From positions 1-46,202 of the forward strand of contig JACOTM010000066.1 of assembly GCA_016178305.1 (NCBI GenBank): 46,202 nucleotides of DNA, written 5' to 3'. How positions within the stretch are numbered: position 1 is the stretch's first letter; each line of letters begins with the position of its first letter. The notes under the pieces are model-generated. The model made no database searches, was not told the DNA's origin, and was given only the letters and a program-made list of their open reading frames with translations. Below are positions 3,123 through 34,650 of this stretch, in pieces. Origin of the DNA: Flavobacteriia bacterium (GTDB lineage: Bacteria > Bacteroidota > Bacteroidia > Flavobacteriales_D > Crocinitomicaceae). Position numbers and translations under genes: made by a program.

Positions 3123-6100
3123 TTACTTTAATAAAAATAATTTTTCAATTTTTTCGGCAATTTCGCCTGTTTCAGAACGAACAGAAAGTTTATAAATATA
3201 AACACCTTTTGCTAAATCGTCTCCAAAGTCATCCTTACCATCCCAAGTAATTCCATCAGATCTAAACCCAATTGTTGATACTGTTTTATTAATCGTTTTA
3301 ATGACCTTTCCTGAAACTGTATAAATCTGAATTTGAACATCTAGATTACTACAAACTTGATTATGCTCAAAATAAAAATCAGTTTTAGTTGTAAATGGAT
3401 TCGGATAATTTTGTTCAGCAGAATTATCATTGATGTCCCAAACTTTAAATGTCAAAGTATGCGTTCCTGGTGATAGAATCGGAAATGTGTAATTTACCTC
3501 TCCTTGTTGGTAGGAGTCTAATGCTGCTGAATAATAATTATTTAGTATAATTGGTTTTGAGGTTTCTCCATCTAGTACAACTGTAACATCATGTCCAATA
3601 CCATTCCCCACTGTATTTACACCATAATTATCTTCAATTTTTGCAATTAATGTTGGGGTTTCATTTGTTTCTCCTCCATCAACAAATTTTTCATCGTTTA
3701 GATACATTTTTATGATTGGTGGTTCATGATCGACAACACCATTTGGATCAATACCTCCTACAATAAACCGCTCATCTACCCCACCTGCATCCAATGTATT
3801 TGATAACAATCTATTATCTGCATAATAACTAATTTTACCTGGGCCAAATGAATAATTAATATCTTTTGGAACAATAAAGGAGAAATCAAAGTAACCATTT
3901 TTTACACTTACCATCCCTTTAAACAAAGCATTCTTTTGTAATTCAAATGGAATTAATGGCGCGCCTTGATCTTGACCTAAAGTTGTCAATTGTTTAGGCT
4001 TATCAAAAATTGTAGGAGTCAATACCCCGTTAAAATTAGTTAAAATTGTTCCATTATTATTTACTAAATGTCCTTTAATCGTCACTTTACTTAATGCTCT
4101 CAAAGTGTCCATTATTAATTGCGGTGAAACTGAATTAATACTATCAGTAACAACATTCATTTGAGGCAGTGCTAATCTCAAAGCTGGATCACCAATCAAT
4201 GTAAAACACCGTTTATTTTCCATCGATAATGATTGATTTTTAGTTAATCTAATTATTTCTCCAAATGGCAAGCCTAAATATTGCACATCTCTTTCAAATA
4301 CATTCTTGTAAAATTTATTTAGAATATCTGTATTAACTCCGATATAAATTGCTCGAGTTGTTGTCATTAATGCAATTGCGCCACCTTTTGGATTCAATGA
4401 TACCCATTCACCTGCTGATACTCTACTGGGATCGTCATATTTTGTAAATTCACAAGTAGCGGAAACAAATAAATTTAACTTATTAATATTACTCCAACTT
4501 TGAATTTGTGGTATTGTTATTATTCTTTCAGCAGCCGCACCAACTTCTCCTCCATGTCCGATATAATTCATTAACAAAACACCATTAGCAATTCGATCAT
4601 CAATTTCCTCATTAACTTCAGGATATCTTTGTCCTCCAGCAGTTGAAATTTGAGGATAAGCATCTATGTAAATTTTATCACAATTTAATTCTGGGTGAGA
4701 TAATTTAACACCTAAATAATTGGGTTCAGCATCATCTGGAACAAAATTTCCAGTCGCCTCATAATCATCTGCTATTAACACATATTTTTGTCTCCAATCT
4801 CCATAAGTACTATTACTTTTTGAAGCTCCACAACAATTTGAAGTTGCATAAATATCTGAGCCATTCTTCATATAATGTTCAATTTTATCAACTTGCTCTT
4901 TCGCTATTTGATTGGACGATATTAATAATCTACCAACACCTATATCCAATAAATCACCATCTTCAAAAGACTCATTATCATCTAACAAACCAAAATAATC
5001 ATCAGAAACCAATGCCGAGATATGATCTTCCGAATTTAAGACTTGGTAAGTTGGTACATAGTTATTGTTATTCGCAATTCTATTTTTGGGATCATAAGTT
5101 CCATCTCCAAATAAAAGTAAATATTTTAATTCCAAAGAACTATTTGCTATAGATCGATCATAAAACATTTTTGCAAATCTTTTTATTGCCGTAGGATCTT
5201 TCATTCCAGAACTAAATTCATTATATATCTGTTCCGTTGTTACTACATGAACAATCAAACCATTTCCTCGATGTAAATCCGCTAATCTTTCAGCTTGGCT
5301 TACAAAAGTAACATCTGTTACTATCAGATAATCTGCCTGAGATAAACCATGTAAATTTTGAAAAGACACACCGCCTTCTTTAGTAGGAATGAAATAATTA
5401 ATTCCATCAAAAACGACAAACTCTTTTAAAGAATCAGTAGGTACTCTAAAAACATAAGTCGAATTAGAGAGAGTTCCAATTATTTGCATTGGAACTTGTC
5501 TATTTGATATATCCCATAAAGTAGTATTAGAATTACTATTCAATATTGAAAATTCACTAATATTTGAAAGTCCAACTGAATTAAGATCTCTAAAATTCAT
5601 TTGGCTTCCATAAAAAGTCAATCCTCTTCTACAATTCAACAATATATTATCCAAATAAGTTAATGCTGATGGATTATTTCGATTAATAGTAATATTTAAA
5701 TCAATGGATGACAAGGGATTATTATATGAAAAAGCAACAGGTGATCTTCCATAAGATTCGCTACTTGCTGATGGTAACACTGTGTTATAAAGTGTCGTGC
5801 CATTTACAGAATAAATTTGACTCGTACCCAACGAAGAAGTGGAGTTTGATGCTATAGCTACATTGAAAAGAACTGGAACACTTTGAATAATATTTGGAAT
5901 ATTAAAATTAAATGTTTGACTAAGCTCCGTATCAAATTCCTCACCATACCAACGTTGTCCTCCTTTAATTAAGGATTTACTATCAACTTCGTGCTTTACG
6001 AAATAAGAATATGACGAAACATTATTAGTAACTGCAGAATTAACACTTGCAATGGAATTAATTCTTAATGGAGTATTCAAACTATTGATATTTATAAAAT

Positions 6101-6956
6101 AAACCGAGTAATCCGAGTAAATATTTTGATCAATTGTAAATCCTGTGTTTGTTGAATTTACATTACTCTTAGATGGTCCCCATCCATAAAATAAAATATA
6201 ATCTTGATCATTAAAAACGCCATCTCCATCTCCCGAAATAAAAATAGCATTTTTAGCTAAGTCATCGGTAAAAACCGAATTATTTAATTCCGATAATCTG
6301 CCAGATCCATTACCATAAATATTAATATCATTTGGATTTAAACCTTGAACGCTAATCCCACAACTTTCCAAAAAAGCTTTATCTATTTTATAAACACCAT
6401 CTTGATTTACTTTTATTTTGTACCACAATCCTGAACCAACGTTTAACACCGATGAATTCGCAAAGCTTTTCTGTTTTGGTGATGAAATTTCAGTACCATG
6501 AATTTTATGAAATTCTATTGAATTTACTCTATAAATAATACCACCTTCACTAACATAAGGTAATAAATTCACGGTGATAAACTTCTGTTTTTTTGCATGA
6601 ACAATTTTTATTTGACAATCTAAAACCGAAGGAATAACGATATTTTTAGATTTTAAATAATTAACATCAATAGCTGGTGCGATGGTTTTTTGAATCGATA
6701 TTAAATTACAATTGATAATATTTTTATCTTCTTCTAACCATGAAAAATGAGGAATATTATCTTTATAAGACTGTCCTTCAATCAATGGCAATGAAATTTC
6801 TACTTCATTTAACATAAGCGTTTTTGAATGCCCCCATGGAATTGTAATAACAGTAATGTTTTGTGAAAAAAAACAATTTGTGTTAAAAATTAGAAGGATA
6901 AAAAAAGAAAATAAACAAATTAGTTGTATTTTTATAGAATTATCTTGAATTTTCAT
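3123..6956 (-). CDS. porU: Type IX secretion system sortase PorU (C25 gingipain-like)
   Basis: PorU is the cell-surface cysteine protease/transpeptidase that removes the C-terminal signal of T9SS cargo and attaches it to the surface. The 1277-residue protein has an N-terminal hydrophobic signal (about residues 10-31) and a long beta-rich N-terminal region. The peptidase C25 domain follows at roughly residues 540-930, with the catalytic pair visible as His801 in MNYIGHGGE and Cys835 in VSATCEFT. Ig-like beta regions come next, then a C-terminal sorting-domain-like module from about residue 1195 (GVYIYKLSVRSETGE). Retention of this C-terminal module is known for PorU. Both catalytic residues are present, so the enzyme should be active. 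It is first in the run porU-porV-ispF and divergent from porP. Confidence 0.97.
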   Translation of the reverse strand: MKIQDNSIKIQLICLFSFFILLIFNTNCFFSQNITVITIPWGHSKTLMLNEVEISLPLIEGQSYKDNIPHFSWLEEDKNIINCNLISIQKTIAPAIDVNYLKSKNIVIPSVLDCQIKIVHAKKQKFITVNLLPYVSEGGIIYRVNSIEFHKIHGTEISSPKQKSFANSSVLNVGSGLWYKIKVNQDGVYKIDKAFLESCGISVQGLNPNDINIYGNGSGRLSELNNSVFTDDLAKNAIFISGDGDGVFNDQDYILFYGWGPSKSNVNSTNTGFTIDQNIYSDYSVYFININSLNTPLRINSIASVNSAVTNNVSSYSYFVKHEVDSKSLIKGGQRWYGEEFDTELSQTFNFNIPNIIQSVPVLFNVAIASNSTSSLGTSQIYSVNGTTLYNTVLPSASSESYGRSPVAFSYNNPLSSIDLNITINRNNPSALTYLDNILLNCRRGLTFYGSQMNFRDLNSVGLSNISEFSILNSNSNTTLWDISNRQVPMQIIGTLSNSTYVFRVPTDSLKEFVVFDGINYFIPTKEGGVSFQNLHGLSQADYLIVTDVTFVSQAERLADLHRGNGLIVHVVTTEQIYNEFSSGMKDPTAIKRFAKMFYDRSIANSSLELKYLLLFGDGTYDPKNRIANNNNYVPTYQVLNSEDHISALVSDDYFGLLDDNESFEDGDLLDIGVGRLLISSNQIAKEQVDKIEHYMKNGSDIYATSNCCGASKSNSTYGDWRQKYVLIADDYEATGNFVPDDAEPNYLGVKLSHPELNCDKIYIDAYPQISTAGGQRYPEVNEEIDDRIANGVLLMNYIGHGGEVGAAAERIITIPQIQSWSNINKLNLFVSATCEFTKYDDPSRVSAGEWVSLNPKGGAIALMTTTRAIYIGVNTDILNKFYKNVFERDVQYLGLPFGEIIRLTKNQSLSMENKRCFTLIGDPALRLALPQMNVVTDSINSVSPQLIMDTLRALSKVTIKGHLVNNNGTILTNFNGVLTPTIFDKPKQLTTLGQDQGAPLIPFELQKNALFKGMVSVKNGYFDFSFIVPKDINYSFGPGKISYYADNRLLSNTLDAGGVDERFIVGGIDPNGVVDHEPPIIKMYLNDEKFVDGGETNETPTLIAKIEDNYGVNTVGNGIGHDVTVVLDGETSKPIILNNYYSAALDSYQQGEVNYTFPILSPGTHTLTFKVWDINDNSAEQNYPNPFTTKTDFYFEHNQVCSNLDVQIQIYTVSGKVIKTINKTVSTIGFRSDGITWDGKDDFGDDLAKGVYIYKLSVRSETGEIAEKIEKLFLLK

Positions 6957-7040: not shown

Positions 7041-7070
7041 GTAACCTTTTAGTGTTAGATAACGTTATAG
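7041..7070 (+). promoter_or_regulatory. Putative ECF-type promoter upstream of porP (shared T9SS element)
   Basis: GTAACCTTTT at 7041-7050, then 17 nt from the C of GTAAC to the CG at 7063-7064 in CGTTATAG. The AAC/CGT pair at this spacing is the signature of ECF sigma promoters. Near-identical arrangements precede gldJ (8093) and the porE-like gene (32358). The -10 part lies in the 10-bp palindrome ATAACGTTAT (7059-7068). No good TAnnTTTG box is present here. The start codon is 37 nt after the palindrome. Confidence 0.5.
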
Positions 7071-7106: not shown

Positions 7107-8075
7107 ATGAAAAAAATTAATAAAATACTGATAGTTTTTTCTATCGCTTTATTCAGTCATAACATTATGGCTCAAGACCCAACGTTTACACAATTTTATG
7201 CGAATCCTTTGTATTTGAACCCCGCTTTTGCTGGATCGAATGGATGCCCTAGATTTGCAATGAATTACAGGAATGAATGGCCTAATTTATCTGGTAATTA
7301 TGTTACAACAAGTGCTTCTTATGACCAATATTTTAAAAACATATCTGGTGGAATTGGAATATTAGCAACAAATGACCAACAAGGGAAAGGTACTATTCAA
7401 ACTTCAATGCTCGGCTTAATTTATTCGTATCATGTTAAAATTAATAGAAAATTTACAATGATGTTTGGCGCAAGAGCATCGTGGTATCAAAAAACACTTG
7501 ATTGGGACAAATTAACATTTGGCGATATGATTGACGGCCGAAGAGGTTTTATATATCAAACATCAGATCTTCCAAGAGGAGGTAAAAGAGGTTTTTTTGA
7601 TGCTTCAGCTGGCTTTGTAGGTTTCAGTAAAAATTTCTATTTTGGATTTGCTGCGCATCATTTAAATGAACCAAATGAATCAATGATTATAGGTAATTCA
7701 AAATTGCCAATGAGATTTACAGGACACATGGGAGCTGAAATTAAGCTTGGTAAAAAATCAAGATATGCTAATGCTACATCTATTATGCCTAACATTATCT
7801 ATCAGTATCAACAAAGTTTTCAAGAATTATGTATCGGAACTTACGTGAAACATGGTGTTTTTACTGGTGGAATTTGGTTTAGAAATAAAGATGCTTTCAT
7901 TTTATCAATTGGAATTAGTTCTAAAAATTTTAAAATTGGTTACAGTTATGATGTTACTGTTTCAAAATTAAACAATGGAACTTCGCATGGATCTCATGAA
8001 ATTTCATTAGGTTTAAACTTAAATTGTAAAGCAAAACCACAGACTTTTAGAACAATTTCTTGTCCTTCTTTTTAA
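7107..8075 (+). CDS. PorP/SprF family type IX secretion system membrane protein
   Basis: Members of this family are outer-membrane proteins of the T9SS. PorP is part of the core, while SprF-type paralogues work with specific large adhesins such as SprB. The 322-residue protein has a signal peptide ending at about residue 22 (NIMAQ). It is followed by the family's hallmark mature N-terminus DPTFTQFYANPLYLNPAFAG and then the NYRNEWPNLSGNYVTTSASYD block. The remainder alternates polar and aromatic residues as expected of a beta-barrel, and a cysteine-containing tail ends the protein. It lies between divergent porU and co-oriented gldJ. Whether it is the core PorP or a SprF-like paralogue cannot be settled from sequence alone. 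Its upstream element matches that of gldJ, which favours a core role. Confidence 0.93.
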   Translation: MKKINKILIVFSIALFSHNIMAQDPTFTQFYANPLYLNPAFAGSNGCPRFAMNYRNEWPNLSGNYVTTSASYDQYFKNISGGIGILATNDQQGKGTIQTSMLGLIYSYHVKINRKFTMMFGARASWYQKTLDWDKLTFGDMIDGRRGFIYQTSDLPRGGKRGFFDASAGFVGFSKNFYFGFAAHHLNEPNESMIIGNSKLPMRFTGHMGAEIKLGKKSRYANATSIMPNIIYQYQQSFQELCIGTYVKHGVFTGGIWFRNKDAFILSIGISSKNFKIGYSYDVTVSKLNNGTSHGSHEISLGLNLNCKAKPQTFRTISCPSF

Positions 8076-8092: not shown

Positions 8093-8123
8093 GTAACTTT
8101 TATTGTAGTTAACGTTAATATAG
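8093..8123 (+). promoter_or_regulatory. Putative ECF-type promoter upstream of gldJ (shared T9SS element)
   Basis: GTAACTTTTATTGT at 8093-8106 and CGTTAATATAG at 8113-8123, with 15 nt between the C of GTAAC and the CG. The CG sits in the perfect palindrome TTAACGTTAA (8109-8118). The match to the porP element covers the -35-like part, the TAACGTTA core and the following TATAG. Confidence 0.5.
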
Positions 8124-8131
8124 TAAATTTG
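8124..8131 (+). promoter_or_regulatory. -7 box for gldJ
   Basis: TAAATTTG matches TAnnTTTG exactly, and a TTG at 8103-8105 lies 18 nt upstream, close to the expected 19-nt spacing. This is the best full sigma-A-like promoter in the window. It overlaps the putative ECF-type element, so gldJ may have two promoters. Confidence 0.55.
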
Positions 8132-8144
8132 CACACTTGAAATA

Positions 8145-10184
8145 ATGAATAAAAAAACCAATAATATGAAATTACTTCACTATTTTGCAGCCATAATCAT
8201 GGGTACAGTGATTTTAAGTTCTTGTACACGTGAAAGATCTACTTCTACTGGATGGGAGTATAATGATCCAAAAACAGGAGGCTTTCAAAAATTTCCATTC
8301 ATGGATCAAGAAACTGGACCAGGTCTAGTTATGGTTGAAGGTGGTACATTTACCATGGGTAGAGCTGAACAAGATGTTATGTTCGACTGGAACAATCGTC
8401 CTGTTAGAGTTTCTGTATCATCGTTTTACATGGACCAAACAGAAGTAACAAACTTCCATTGGTGCGAGTATTTATATTGGATTTCAAGAGCTTACGAAAC
8501 TTATCCTATCGTTTATAAAAATGCTTTGCCTGACACGAATGCATGGAGATCGCCATTAGGGTTTCAAGAGAAATTTGTTGAATATTATTTAAGACACCCT
8601 GCATATAGAGATTACCCTGTAGTTGGTGTTACTTGGTTACAAGCATCAGACTATTGTAAATGGAGAACGGATCGTGTAAATGAATATATCTTAATCCGCG
8701 AAGGTGTTTTAGATTATAACATTGAACAAAGAGATGAGGCTACATTTAATACGGAATCATATTTGGCAGGTCAGTATGAAGAAAAAGTTTTGGATAATCC
8801 GCAAGATTTGAACCCTTCACATGCAAATGGAAAAAAATTAGGAACTCGTCAAGTAAGAATGGAAGATGGTATTTTGTTACCACGTTATAGACTCCCAACT
8901 GAAGCTGAATGGGAATTTGCTTACTACGGATTAGTTGGAAACTTACAAGAAGGAACCGAATTAATTACTGAAAGAAGATTATTTGCTTGGGATGGACATT
9001 GGGTACGTAATGATGAAGAACAATTTCAAGGTTCTATTCGAGCAAACTTTGTGAGAGGAACTGGTGATTACATGGGGGTTGCAGGTCAGTTAAATGATGC
9101 TGCAGATGTAACGGCACCTGTAGAATCTTATTGGCCAAACGATTACGGTTTATACCACATGGCTGGTAACGTATCAGAATGGGTGTTAGATGTTTACCGT
9201 CCATTATCTTCGGAAGATTTTGATGAGTTTAGACCATTTAGAGGAAATGTATTCAAAACTAAATTATTAAACAACGCTGGTTCTACGGAAATCAAAAATT
9301 CTACAGTTCAGTTTGATGTACATGGAATGAAAGAATATTTAAATGAATTTGAAAGAGTTCGTTACCAAAGAATATCAGCTCAAAAGCACGATCCAAATGA
9401 TAGTATCATTCCTGTTGGAATTTCAAAAAATGTTCAATCTAGAAATCCTGATAGAAAAGGATATGCTCCAGATCCATTTTATGTATCACATGGTAATGTG
9501 AAAGATTCTATCGAATTAGCTTTATTAGCAAAAATAAATCATGTTATAGATTTATCTATTATCGATAAAAACAATAAACATGATAATGAAGCTGCTGCTC
9601 GAATTCAAGATGAATTGTTTGATGGTATATTTGCTGAAGAATTAAGAGTAGGTCCTAGTGGCGAAGAGTATGCATTTGAAATTATCTCTATGTTACGTGA
9701 AGGATTTACAGCTTTTATTACTGACACTCCAGGAAAATTAAAATACAGAAATGTAACTGAAGAAGAAAATATTGGGCGTATCAATTATAGAAAAGATGAT
9801 TATATTGATTATTTAGATGGTGATATTGAAAGTTCTATCTACTATGATAATGACGACCGTAAAAACAAAATTAATCAAGCAAGCCGTGACCCAAATTTAA
9901 TTATGTACCAAAGTCAACACGAAGAATTTGGTTTAGATGGGTTACAAGTTAAACCTGGTGACAGAACTTCATGGCCAACAACTTTAGTTTCTGACAAATC
10001 TAGAGTATATAAAGGTGGTTCTTGGAAAGATCGAGCATATTGGTTAGTTGGTGGTACAAGACGTTTCTTAGATGAAGATAAATCTATGTCAACAATTGGA
10101 TTTAGATGTTGTATGGATAGACTAGGCAGTCCAATAGGAATGGGTGTATCAGGAGACAAACCGAAGAAAAAGAAAAAGAAATAA
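8145..10184 (+). CDS. gldJ: Gliding motility / T9SS lipoprotein GldJ
   Basis: GldJ is an inner-face outer-membrane lipoprotein needed for stability of other Gld proteins, for T9SS secretion and for gliding. The 679-residue product has a lipoprotein signal with lipobox LSSC (Cys27); an internal ATG at 8166 would give an equally good 20-residue leader. A formylglycine-generating-enzyme-like (FGE-sulfatase) fold begins near residue 58 (GLVMVEGGTFTMGR) and includes YMDQTEVTN, RLPTEAEWEFAYYG, MAGNVSEWVLDVY and the terminal block YKGGSWKDRAYWL...TIGFRCC. Between the last two blocks lies a long charged insert (about residues 370-600), which makes it longer than the roughly 560 residues I recall for Flavobacterium GldJ. 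The C-terminus is a run of lysines. GldK is a related alternative, but the porU/porV and murF neighbourhood fits GldJ. Confidence 0.9.
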   Translation: MNKKTNNMKLLHYFAAIIMGTVILSSCTRERSTSTGWEYNDPKTGGFQKFPFMDQETGPGLVMVEGGTFTMGRAEQDVMFDWNNRPVRVSVSSFYMDQTEVTNFHWCEYLYWISRAYETYPIVYKNALPDTNAWRSPLGFQEKFVEYYLRHPAYRDYPVVGVTWLQASDYCKWRTDRVNEYILIREGVLDYNIEQRDEATFNTESYLAGQYEEKVLDNPQDLNPSHANGKKLGTRQVRMEDGILLPRYRLPTEAEWEFAYYGLVGNLQEGTELITERRLFAWDGHWVRNDEEQFQGSIRANFVRGTGDYMGVAGQLNDAADVTAPVESYWPNDYGLYHMAGNVSEWVLDVYRPLSSEDFDEFRPFRGNVFKTKLLNNAGSTEIKNSTVQFDVHGMKEYLNEFERVRYQRISAQKHDPNDSIIPVGISKNVQSRNPDRKGYAPDPFYVSHGNVKDSIELALLAKINHVIDLSIIDKNNKHDNEAAARIQDELFDGIFAEELRVGPSGEEYAFEIISMLREGFTAFITDTPGKLKYRNVTEEENIGRINYRKDDYIDYLDGDIESSIYYDNDDRKNKINQASRDPNLIMYQSQHEEFGLDGLQVKPGDRTSWPTTLVSDKSRVYKGGSWKDRAYWLVGGTRRFLDEDKSMSTIGFRCCMDRLGSPIGMGVSGDKPKKKKKK

Positions 10185-32357: not shown

Positions 32358-32386
32358 GTAACTTTTTACTGTTTTTTTCGATATAG
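32358..32386 (+). promoter_or_regulatory. Putative ECF-type promoter upstream of the porE-like gene (shared T9SS element)
   Basis: GTAACTTTTTACTGT at 32358-32372 and CGATATAG at 32379-32386, with 16 nt between the C of GTAAC and the CG. It matches the elements before porP (GTAACCTTTTAGTGT, CGTTATAG) and gldJ (GTAACTTTTATTGT, CGTTAATATAG). It lies 54 nt before the ATG at 32440. Confidence 0.5.
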
Positions 32387-32439
32387 ATGAATGGGTATGG
32401 TTTTTGTTTATACCTCAAACATTCAACAAATTAGTGTTT

Positions 32440-34650
32440 ATGTCTAAATTTTACATTGTTTTTTTAAGCTTGATGGCGTTTTCAACGACATTAGTAGCTC
32501 AAACAGAAGATGAAGCTTGTTTACATCATAAAAAAAAAATATTAAAACTAATCGAAGCCGGGAAAAATGCTTCAGATGCACCGACAGCAATTGCTAATTT
32601 CAATAAAGCAATCGATGAAAATTCCGACAATGCCACACCGTATTATGAATATGCAATGTATGCATTTGAAAGTGGATCTAAATATTATGAAAAAAATCCA
32701 AACCCTGCTATGGGAGATAAAAGTTTTCAGAAATCTAAAGAAATGTTTTTAAAGACCTTAGAGAAATGTTCTGATTTTCACGCAAATTGCTTTTATTATT
32801 TGGGGGTTATCAATTATTCTCAAAAAAACATGGAGGAAGCTATCAAATGGTTTGGAGAATTTAAAAAATTCAAAAGTTCAAATAACGACAGATACCCAGC
32901 TGATTACGATAAAAAAATTGCTGACATTAATGAAATTCTACCGGACTTAAAAAATGAAGTTGAATTAAAAACAAATCAAGTTCCCTTTAATCCGTCAATG
33001 GTAAAAAATGTAAGTTCCAAAAATGACGAATATTTCCCTATGATTTCTCCTGATAATGAAATTATGTTTTTTACGAGAAAAGATACTGTCGATAAAATGA
33101 ATACTGGTGTAAACACAGTTGTATATGAAAATTTTACCTTATCCTTTCGAACAAATGTCTCTGAATTATTTAGTAATGGAAAAGCATTATCTAAACCTTT
33201 CAATGATGGTAGTTTCTCAAGTTATGGCGCGGCAACAATGTCTGTCGATAATAAAGAAATGATTTTTTGTGCTTGCCAAGAAATAACCGTTCAAACAGCT
33301 ACAGGACCTCAACCTTACAAAAATTGTGATTTATATAGAACTGAATATGAACGAACAGGAGCTGGTGGAAATGATTACACTTGGACACAGCCTGAAAATT
33401 TAGGAACAGGAATTAATACACAAAATGGGTGGGAAGGTCAACCGACATTATCTGCTGATGGACAAACACTTTTTTATACCGTTCTAAGACCCAATAATAC
33501 TACTGATAATGATATTTGGACCGCTCAAAAAATGCCTAATGGAAAATGGGGAAATTTCAAACCTTTTATTCATAATACATCCGGGAAAGATAAAAGCCCT
33601 TTTTTACACCAAGATAGTGAAACTTTGTATTTCGTTTCAGCCGTTTCAGATAAGCGAAAAGGTGTGGGGGGATTAGATATTTTTTATACACGTTGGGATG
33701 CTGAATATAAAAATCCAGATGGTTCTAAAGGAAATTGGGGGACGCCCAAAAACATTGGATACCCTATTAACACAGAAGCAGATGAATTAGGTATTTTTGT
33801 TTCTACTGATGGAACTTTAGCGTATTATTCTTCTCGACAAGGAGGAAATTGGAATATTTATTCTTTTGAATTGTATGAAGAAGCCCGTCCAACAGGTGTA
33901 ACTATTTTGAAAGGTGAACTGAAAGATGAAAATGGTAATCCAATTGAAGGAGCTGAAATTGAAGTAGCTTATGAAGGAACGGGGGAAGTTACCAAAATTA
34001 AAGTGAACGGGAATGATGGTAAATATGCTACCGTTGTAAAAAACAACACGCATCATGATGTCATGGTAACTGTTAAAAAAGAAGGTTATGCATTTGATTC
34101 AAAAGTAATCACTAAAGAAGAATTGGAAAAAACTCAAGCGGTTCCATTAACACCTAAAGTGGAGCCTGTAACTAATAAAACAGAAACAAATCCTACAAAA
34201 ACAAATAATGAGGAAGAAATAGTTGCTACTTTAAGAGAAACAAAAAAACCGAATGATGTTTCAATACGAGCTAATAATTTAGTAGTTAAAGAGATTAAAG
34301 TCGGAGAAGCTTATACTATTAATGATATTCTTTTCGCTACAAACTCATACGCATTAAACGAAAGATCTAAATTTATACTAAAACAATTTGCTTCATTCTT
34401 GAAAGAAAATCCAAATGTAACCATTATGATTCAAGGACATACAGATGATCAAGGAGATGATAAGCAAAATTTATTATTATCCGATGGTCGTGCGAATGCT
34501 GTTAAATTATTTTTGATTGCATGTGGTATAGAATCTTCAAGACTATCTTCTAAAGGTTTTGGAGAAACATTGCCTAAAGTTGAAAATACATCCGAATTAA
34601 ATAGAGCTAAAAACAGACGTACTGATTTTGTAATTGAAAAAATTAATTAA
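32440..34650 (+). CDS. porE: PorE-like T9SS protein: TPR, PD40 propeller, CRD and OmpA domains
   Basis: A 736-residue exported protein with the four-part layout known for Porphyromonas PorE, which anchors the T9SS to peptidoglycan. A signal peptide (to about residue 22, TTLVAQ) is followed by TPR-like helices (about 30-165) and PD40 beta-propeller blades (about 180-480; YFPMISPDNEIMFFTRKD, QPTLSADGQTLFYT, DELGIFVSTDGTLAYYSSRQ). A carboxypeptidase-regulatory-like domain (about 485-560; LKGELKDENGNPIEGAEIEV) and an OmpA C-terminal domain (about 627-736; MIQGHTDDQGDDKQNLLLSD) complete it. The frame extends 12 codons upstream from a TTG, but the ATG at 32440 gives the proper signal peptide. This architecture has several paralogues in most Bacteroidota, so orthology to PorE is likely rather than certain. 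The shared upstream element supports a T9SS role. Confidence 0.78.
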   Translation: MSKFYIVFLSLMAFSTTLVAQTEDEACLHHKKKILKLIEAGKNASDAPTAIANFNKAIDENSDNATPYYEYAMYAFESGSKYYEKNPNPAMGDKSFQKSKEMFLKTLEKCSDFHANCFYYLGVINYSQKNMEEAIKWFGEFKKFKSSNNDRYPADYDKKIADINEILPDLKNEVELKTNQVPFNPSMVKNVSSKNDEYFPMISPDNEIMFFTRKDTVDKMNTGVNTVVYENFTLSFRTNVSELFSNGKALSKPFNDGSFSSYGAATMSVDNKEMIFCACQEITVQTATGPQPYKNCDLYRTEYERTGAGGNDYTWTQPENLGTGINTQNGWEGQPTLSADGQTLFYTVLRPNNTTDNDIWTAQKMPNGKWGNFKPFIHNTSGKDKSPFLHQDSETLYFVSAVSDKRKGVGGLDIFYTRWDAEYKNPDGSKGNWGTPKNIGYPINTEADELGIFVSTDGTLAYYSSRQGGNWNIYSFELYEEARPTGVTILKGELKDENGNPIEGAEIEVAYEGTGEVTKIKVNGNDGKYATVVKNNTHHDVMVTVKKEGYAFDSKVITKEELEKTQAVPLTPKVEPVTNKTETNPTKTNNEEEIVATLRETKKPNDVSIRANNLVVKEIKVGEAYTINDILFATNSYALNERSKFILKQFASFLKENPNVTIMIQGHTDDQGDDKQNLLLSDGRANAVKLFLIACGIESSRLSSKGFGETLPKVENTSELNRAKNRRTDFVIEKIN

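Follow-up and report, generated by a model that had tools for sequence, protein, structure and literature searches.

A predicted ECF sigma-factor promoter element upstream of T9SS and cell-envelope genes in Crocinitomicaceae

Results

Three genes of the window share a two-box upstream element

The stretch of DNA analysed here over its full length of 46,202 nucleotides, hereafter the window, is contig 25 of the 3.60-Mb draft genome (124 contigs) of a Flavobacteriia bacterium of the family Crocinitomicaceae, referred to below as the host. It carries a porP/sprF-family gene, gldJ and, at a distance from these, a PorE-like gene of the OmpA family, each preceded by a GTAAC box and a CG box (Table 1). 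An initial annotation of the sequence had described this bipartite pattern at the same three genes with a spacing of 15–17 nt, and the sequences lie exactly where it placed them. The CG box reads CGT at porP and gldJ, as it does at gldK elsewhere in the genome, and CGA at the PorE-like gene. The last of these genes matched the PorE and CHU_0125 OmpA models only below cut-off (153 bits against 600 and 164 bits against 620, respectively), and for this reason it is named PorE-like only. Its start is likelier to be the in-frame ATG at position 32440, behind which an apparent signal peptide follows, than the TTG from which its length is counted in Table 1. Upstream of porU, which is divergent from porP, the element was not found (best score 2.7 with the weight matrix described below). 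The porU product matched the long-form model at its N-terminus; at the C-terminus there was a weak match (27.1 bits, cut-off 23) to the sorting domain of type A of the T9SS.

Table 1. Genes, element copies and a candidate second promoter box in the window.
Feature	Position	Strand	Description
porU	3123..6956	-	NF033707, 1210 bits; divergent from porP; without element upstream
porP element	7041-7067	+	GTAAC-N17-CGTTA, TT directly 5'
porP/sprF-family gene	7107..8075	+	322 aa; TIGR03519 228 bits (above cut-off), PF11751 202 bits; first gene behind the element
gldJ element	8093-8117	+	GTAAC-N15-CGTTA; 17 bp 3' of the porP stop codon
Sigma-A -7 box	8124..8131	+	TAAATTTG = TAnnTTTG; 11 bp 3' of the gldJ CG box; candidate for a second promoter
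gldJ	8145..10184	+	679 aa; gliding/T9SS lipoprotein; TIGR03524 475 bits (above cut-off 458.2)
PorE-like element	32358-32383	+	GTAAC-N16-CGATA
PorE-like gene	32404..34650	+	OmpA family; 748 aa from TTG; family models below cut-off

The pattern GTAACNTTTN{8,14}CGNTA matched the window three times; 100 shuffles gave 0.04 matches on average and never three, a figure that is optimistic because the pattern was derived from the three sites. GTAACN{14,19}CGNTA returned exactly the same three sites (0.37 expected; 2 of 100 shuffles reached three), and the loosest form, GTAACN{14,19}CG, gave 12 matches against 5.28 expected. A weight matrix was then built from 50 gldJ and porP sites of the family, with the porP and gldJ sites of the window included and its PorE-like site left out. 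It scored the porP, gldJ and PorE-like copies at 25.5, 23.2 and 17.2, and the next best position in the window at 12.8, in agreement with the initial annotation, in which the element was seen at no further gene of the window. When one 340-bp region was shuffled 300 times, 99% of the best scores fell below 11.6 and the maximum was 19.0; the score of the PorE-like site alone is therefore within chance, and it is conservation that carries this site.

The element is conserved at orthologous places in the family

A search of 60 family genomes for gldJ gave 30 loci, including that of the host, and the element was present at 28 of them about 50–60 bp upstream of the match (GTAAC-N15-17-CG; 0.09 expected, none with the reversed pattern). 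Among the 25 loci with enough DNA upstream of porP, again including the host, 22 had the element there (0.08 expected, reversed 0). Elsewhere at the same loci, outside the gldJ and porP windows, 144,507 bases contained 12 forward and 10 reversed matches. The spacing was also kept: 15 bp at 24 and 16 bp at 4 of the 28 gldJ sites, and 16 bp in 21 of 25 matches in the porP regions, the 3 matches with a spacer of 15 sitting elsewhere and being dropped later. For the PorE-like gene 30 loci were collected, of which 29 reach the gene start (L304 was left out); the strict pattern was found at 16 of the 29, host included (0.23 expected, reversed 0), many copies reading CGATATA, and several of the 13 misses carried near forms such as GGTATA when inspected by eye. 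Conservation in relatives, which the initial annotation had proposed as a check, was thus seen at all three genes.

The gldJ copy has a second, candidate sigma-A promoter box at a fixed distance

The sequence TAnnTTTG is the consensus of the sigma-A -7 box (PMC9723704). At gldJ it stands 11–13 bp behind the CG in 23 of the 28 regions, against 0.92 expected from shuffles. Within 45 bp of the other copies it was seen at 3 of 22 porP sites, 2 of 15 PorE-like sites (15 of the 16 sites were used), none of 7 gldK sites and none of the 12 copies before the BldN-like sigma gene introduced below. The gldJ copy therefore looks like a composite of two overlapping predicted promoters.

The same box could be taken to mean that the element is no promoter itself and serves as a two-part binding site for an activator or repressor upstream of ordinary sigma-A promoters. 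Besides the fixed phase at gldJ, this reading draws on the observation that TAAC and GTTA form mutually inverted repeats in many sites, and on a palindromic motif reported before some P. gingivalis por genes, whose letters are not given in that account (PMC5005315). The porP, PorE-like, gldK and sigma-gene copies, however, are mostly without a -7 box, which argues against an activator site, and the inverted symmetry is not kept, with GAAAC paired with CGTAA at gldK elsewhere and CGATA at the PorE-like gene. We consider this reading improbable. An RNA hairpin or palindromic operator formed by TAAC...GTTA was rejected by sequence comparison, since the symmetry is lost at those same two places.

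Position, and not number, distinguishes the element genome-wide

Across the host genome, counts alone carried no signal. The pattern GTAACNTTTN{8,14}CGNTA gave 5 matches and its reversed form 10, TGTAACN{15,17}CGTWA gave 22 and 24, and in six relatives (four of the same genus and two other family members) the figures were 64 and 110. As forward matches were no commoner than reversed ones, and 9 of the 22 host matches lay within genes, bulk counts were rejected as proof, and true sites stand out from the background by position and conservation only. By position, 13 of the 22 host matches were intergenic and at most 200 bp upstream of a reading frame on the same strand, whereas 22 of the 24 reversed matches lay within genes, none upstream and 2 elsewhere (Fisher 5e-6; 2e-5 without porP and gldJ). 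In the six relatives, where the forward matches alone were split by position, 38 of the 64 were upstream of genes, 25 within genes and 1 elsewhere. That the recurrence is due to chance in an A+T-rich genome would fit the similar forward and reversed counts in the host and the deficit of forward matches in the relatives, but this explanation is refuted by the conservation at orthologous places together with the positional contrast, and we give it next to no probability.

The 13 upstream targets in the host comprise porP, gldJ, gldK, genes for a bactofilin, an OmpA protein, a glucosaminidase-LysM protein, an HU-CCDC81/SPOR protein, a DUF5686 protein, an ECF sigma factor and a repeat protein that is MORN-like by eye, and three further proteins without an assigned family. 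Over the seven genomes the downstream genes that recurred were gldK (7), porP (6), HU-CCDC81 (4), the BldN-like sigma (4), rhomboid (3) and glucosaminidase (2). The gldK gene, which is unlinked to the window and presumably heads gldKLMN, is thus preceded by the element in the host and in 6 of 6 close relatives. By contrast, the element was found in none of 7 regions upstream of sprA (six relatives and the N-terminal piece present in the host).

These results divide the expectations raised by the initial annotation. The element can indeed be used to find unlinked members, as gldK demonstrates, and a genome scan does place it before another T9SS gene and one ECF sigma gene; the counts, on the other hand, did not exceed the reversed control in the host, and sprA was without the element. 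The proposal that the element defines a T9SS regulon is not supported in that form, in that sprA and porU are without it and envelope genes outside the T9SS have it. In the host these envelope genes are the bactofilin, OmpA, glucosaminidase-LysM, HU-CCDC81/SPOR and DUF5686 genes (L060, L061, L069, L073, L004). Separately, a small conserved protein of 65–70 aa and unknown function was observed behind the element in three genomes (L071, L106, L144).

The element precedes gldK across the order

The distribution at gldK was assessed in three samples: the best 30 GldK matches of 100 genomes searched in the order; 38 further genomes from those 100, excluding the 24 that belong to the family of the host and another 8, most of which gave partial matches only; and 26 genomes with a sigma locus, of which 25 were scored, the match in G081 being without a start. 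With the matrix, which contains gldJ and porP sites only, a score of at least 12 was obtained upstream of gldK in 19 of the 30 best order matches (0.12 expected) and in 18 of the 25 sigma-locus genomes (0.15 expected), and the generic pattern was found in 21 of the 38 further regions, as opposed to 1 of 38 for its reversed form. The -35 box at gldK in the best 30 was GAAAC in 20, GTAAC in 9 and missing in 1. At 11 of 20 loci inspected, a porP-like frame ended 5–19 bp before the gldK site, a placement similar to that of the gldJ site behind porP in the host. Within the sample, the gldK site was not found in three Saprospiraceae-type genomes or in Saccharicrinis, and in 8 genomes without a gldK site the region upstream of the preceding porP was also without the element, as far as the sequence reaches.

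A probably autoregulated BldN-like sigma is linked to porG

No sigma-factor gene lies in the window, as had been stated: none of the 20 sigma-70/ECF matches of the host genome falls on its contig. Upstream regions of 17 of these were scored with the matrix, and only one, that of a 188-aa sigma factor (G000:C118:29470-30036, G000 being the host), had the element (score 20.7; next 8.9; maximum of the 300 shuffles 19.0). Its best NCBIfam model was the BldN family, at 110 bits against a cut-off of 206. Behind it is a gene for a protein of 538 aa in which a single membrane segment can be seen by eye and for which no Pfam or NCBIfam family was matched; position and the membrane segment suggest the label anti-sigma-like. 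A PorG-like gene (64.8 bits, cut-off 130) follows 2.6 kb downstream of the sigma gene, and no element was found upstream of it. The BldN-like ECF, 538-aa and PorG-like genes thus form a cluster on this contig (L056:5471-9535).

This arrangement recurs in relatives. Of 80 named sigma loci, 67 contain a relative of the 538-aa protein, and at 32 a PorG relative follows on the same strand, 0.7–3.5 kb downstream of where the sigma match begins. Upstream of the sigma gene (78 loci, 2 of the 80 being left out), the strict GTAAC-CG form was found in 18 (1.18 expected) and the form GT[A/T][A/T]C-N15-18-GTTnT in 48 of the named genomes (1.52 expected, reversed 1). The recognition helix varied with the sigma's own -35 box, reading TYR in 18 of 19 rows with GTATC and FRA in 25 of 40 rows with GTAAC, a comparison uncorrected for shared ancestry. 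The closest named relatives of this sigma are in Flavobacteriales and Crocinitomicaceae bins and Taishania, as expected of a Crocinitomicaceae-like host, along with two bins whose labels are odd. Three bins that bear the names Chryseobacterium gleum, Candidatus Kuenenia stuttgartiensis and Chitinophaga pinensis (L167, L168, L230) carry it at 86, 89 and 48% identity; the first two labels at least are apparently wrong, or the bins mixed.

The kept autopromoter, the co-change of helix and box, the BldN site and the porG linkage favour autoregulation of the BldN-like sigma and a tie to the T9SS. They could mean that this sigma is a dedicated, autoregulated T9SS factor that reads GTAAC-N15-17-CGTTA and drives its own gene, the anti-sigma-like gene, porP, gldJ, gldK and the PorE-like gene. 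The Streptomyces namesake of its best model is reported to read CGTAAC-N16-CGTTGA, which likewise has a GTAAC -35 box and a CGTT -10 box (PMC2375139); the host sigma differs in falling below the BldN cut-off. This one ECF gene would regulate itself from the same element, and yet its phylogenetic profile argues that it may not read the T9SS sites.

That profile was compiled for the two host ECF factors considered here, the BldN-like and a SigW-like one. Among the best 30 order genomes, 15 lack a BldN-like orthologue (best E 8e-18 or weaker, as against 5e-39 or better in the other 15), yet all 15 have a G[A/T]AAC box at gldK, and 8 of them score at least 12, the only level for which an expectation was computed. 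In 15 genomes where the sigma's own box is GTATC, gldK keeps GTAAC in 12, has GAAAC in 1 and has no box in 2. In 8 genomes with GAAAC at gldK, the promoter of the BldN-like sigma itself never has GAAAC, and in 7 its box belongs to the GTnWC type. GTAAC at gldK was found in 6 of 14 genomes with the sigma and 3 of 15 without it (p 0.18, not significant). Joint variation of the -35 box at gldK and the BldN-like sigma was accordingly rejected as supporting evidence. Many BldN-like autopromoters, moreover, are without the C of the -10 box, and the PorG-like gene of the host is among the genes without the element. For these reasons we regard the BldN-like sigma as reader of the T9SS sites only as a tentative alternative, with the balance of probability against it.

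A SigW-like sigma is the preferred candidate reader

The preferred candidate is a SigW/RpoE-like ECF factor encoded at G000:C24:79815-80417, for which the best NCBIfam model was SigW (139.8 bits, cut-off 209). Of the 30 order genomes, 26 have an orthologue, in one case a partial one, and so do 8 of 8 others. Four results against the BldN-like sigma, the profile of the SigW-like gene and the TGAAAC sites of sigma-W together place this broadly conserved core ECF first as candidate reader; the ranking above the BldN-like sigma is provisional and follows the phylogenetic profile only. In Bacillus subtilis, sigma-W reads TGAAAC-N16,17-CGTA, with the same spacing and CGT -10 box (PMC2375139), and its GAAAC is the commoner box at gldK in the order, as given above. 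In contrast to sigma-W sites, the host family has T for A at the second base of the -35 box, and the SigW-like gene is below the SigW cut-off.

Some observations speak against this assignment. The upstream region of the gene itself had no element (score 3.0). A comparison of its recognition helix was uninformative, since lineages with GAAAC and lineages with GTAAC hardly differ in it. In three genomes where the SigW-like gene was not found (G166, G114 and G125, which are 88, 71 and 81% complete), the gldK box scored 17.2, 9.7 and 13.1. Of the genomes where no SigW-like orthologue was found, only G122 is reasonably complete (97%), and in this single case the gldK site was missing as well.

Discussion

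The element described here is present, positioned and conserved upstream of porP, gldJ, a PorE-like gene and gldK. It consists of an AAC-type -35 box and a CG(T)-type -10 box about 16 bp apart, the architecture of ECF promoters, which the initial annotation had recognised. That assignment is supported: the boxes lie between the published sigma-W and BldN consensus sequences (PMC2375139), are conserved and are common to T9SS units. We infer with high confidence, from architecture and conservation, that the element is an ECF sigma-factor promoter, whichever sigma reads it.

Control of T9SS genes by ECF factors in Bacteroidota is already known, and the host element widens it (PMC9723704, PMC4800418). 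In F. psychrophilum, SM6 is a set of promoters with an ECF-type CGT box and mapped starts, located before gldN, porU, a PG0189 homologue, an ECF/anti-sigma pair and others; they are induced in low nutrients, and the account leaves the sigma open (PMC9723704). The host element resembles SM6 in its CGT-type -10 box and in having T9SS genes and an ECF gene among its targets. It differs in several respects: the account of SM6 gives the CGT box alone and no -35 box; porP, gldJ and gldK are outside the published selection, although the full SM6 list may differ; the targets agree in part only, in that the host element precedes an ECF gene and gldK, and neither porU nor the PorG-like gene; and starts were mapped in F. 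psychrophilum, whereas the host element is known from sequence alone (PMC9723704).

In P. gingivalis, SigP is the ECF sigma proposed for T9SS genes in the SigP/PorXY pathway, and it binds upstream of porP, porV, porT and ruvA (PMC4800418); for F. johnsoniae, one homologue of SigP has been reported (PMC10951265). The likeness, which includes porP, could mean that the element is read by a third ECF factor, a true SigP orthologue under PorX/PorY as in P. gingivalis. The published SigP motif, C(T)AAA(G/C/T)A(T)A(C)T(A/G)A, nevertheless has no GTAAC or CG box and, compared by eye, is unlike the host element (PMC4800418), and we think such a reader unlikely. Should SigP prove orthologous to the SigW-like gene, this alternative would merge with the preferred explanation.

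Under the explanation that we prefer, the promoter would consist of a -35 box TTG[T/A]AAC and a -10 box CG[T/A][T/A]A, 15–17 bp apart, read by an ECF sigma. RNA polymerase with this sigma would start a few bases past the CG box and so switch T9SS parts together, driving porP, gldJ, the PorE-like gene, gldK (which is unlinked) and, more broadly, a set of genes of the cell envelope. At gldJ, a basal start probably comes in addition from the sigma-A -7 box at its fixed distance. The BldN-like ECF may itself belong to this network, or may be another reader that overlaps with the first. We lean modestly towards the statement as a whole, that is, an ECF promoter of T9SS units and envelope genes, with a basal sigma-A start at gldJ and a SigW-like reader. 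The stronger porG linkage of the BldN-like sigma (32/80) lowers our confidence in the SigW-like part and raises it in the BldN-like alternative.

The two candidates might also be related by history. The T9SS promoters may have changed hands, from an ancestral SigW-like sigma reading GAAAC-N16-CGTWA to the autoregulated BldN-like sigma, with a single A-to-T change (to TTGTAAC) in a Crocinitomicaceae-like lineage having put porP, gldJ, gldK and the PorE-like gene under the latter. This course of events seems doubtful to us. If true, it would have given the lineage a dedicated sigma for the secretion machine, with an anti-sigma-like membrane protein near porG and a sigma-A promoter laid over the gldJ copy.

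No description of a GTAAC/CGTTA T9SS promoter was found in the titles and abstract openings searched, supplements aside. As far as this literature goes, the -35 box, the members porP, gldJ, PorE-like and gldK with their order-wide conservation, the composite gldJ promoter and the two sigma candidates appear to be new. Two earlier reports leave open which sigma serves the T9SS outside Porphyromonas (PMC9723704, PMC10951265), and a conserved promoter that can be searched with a matrix, together with two named sigma candidates, makes that question directly testable. For the organism and its relatives, the element would link expression of the T9SS to that of a larger group of envelope genes.
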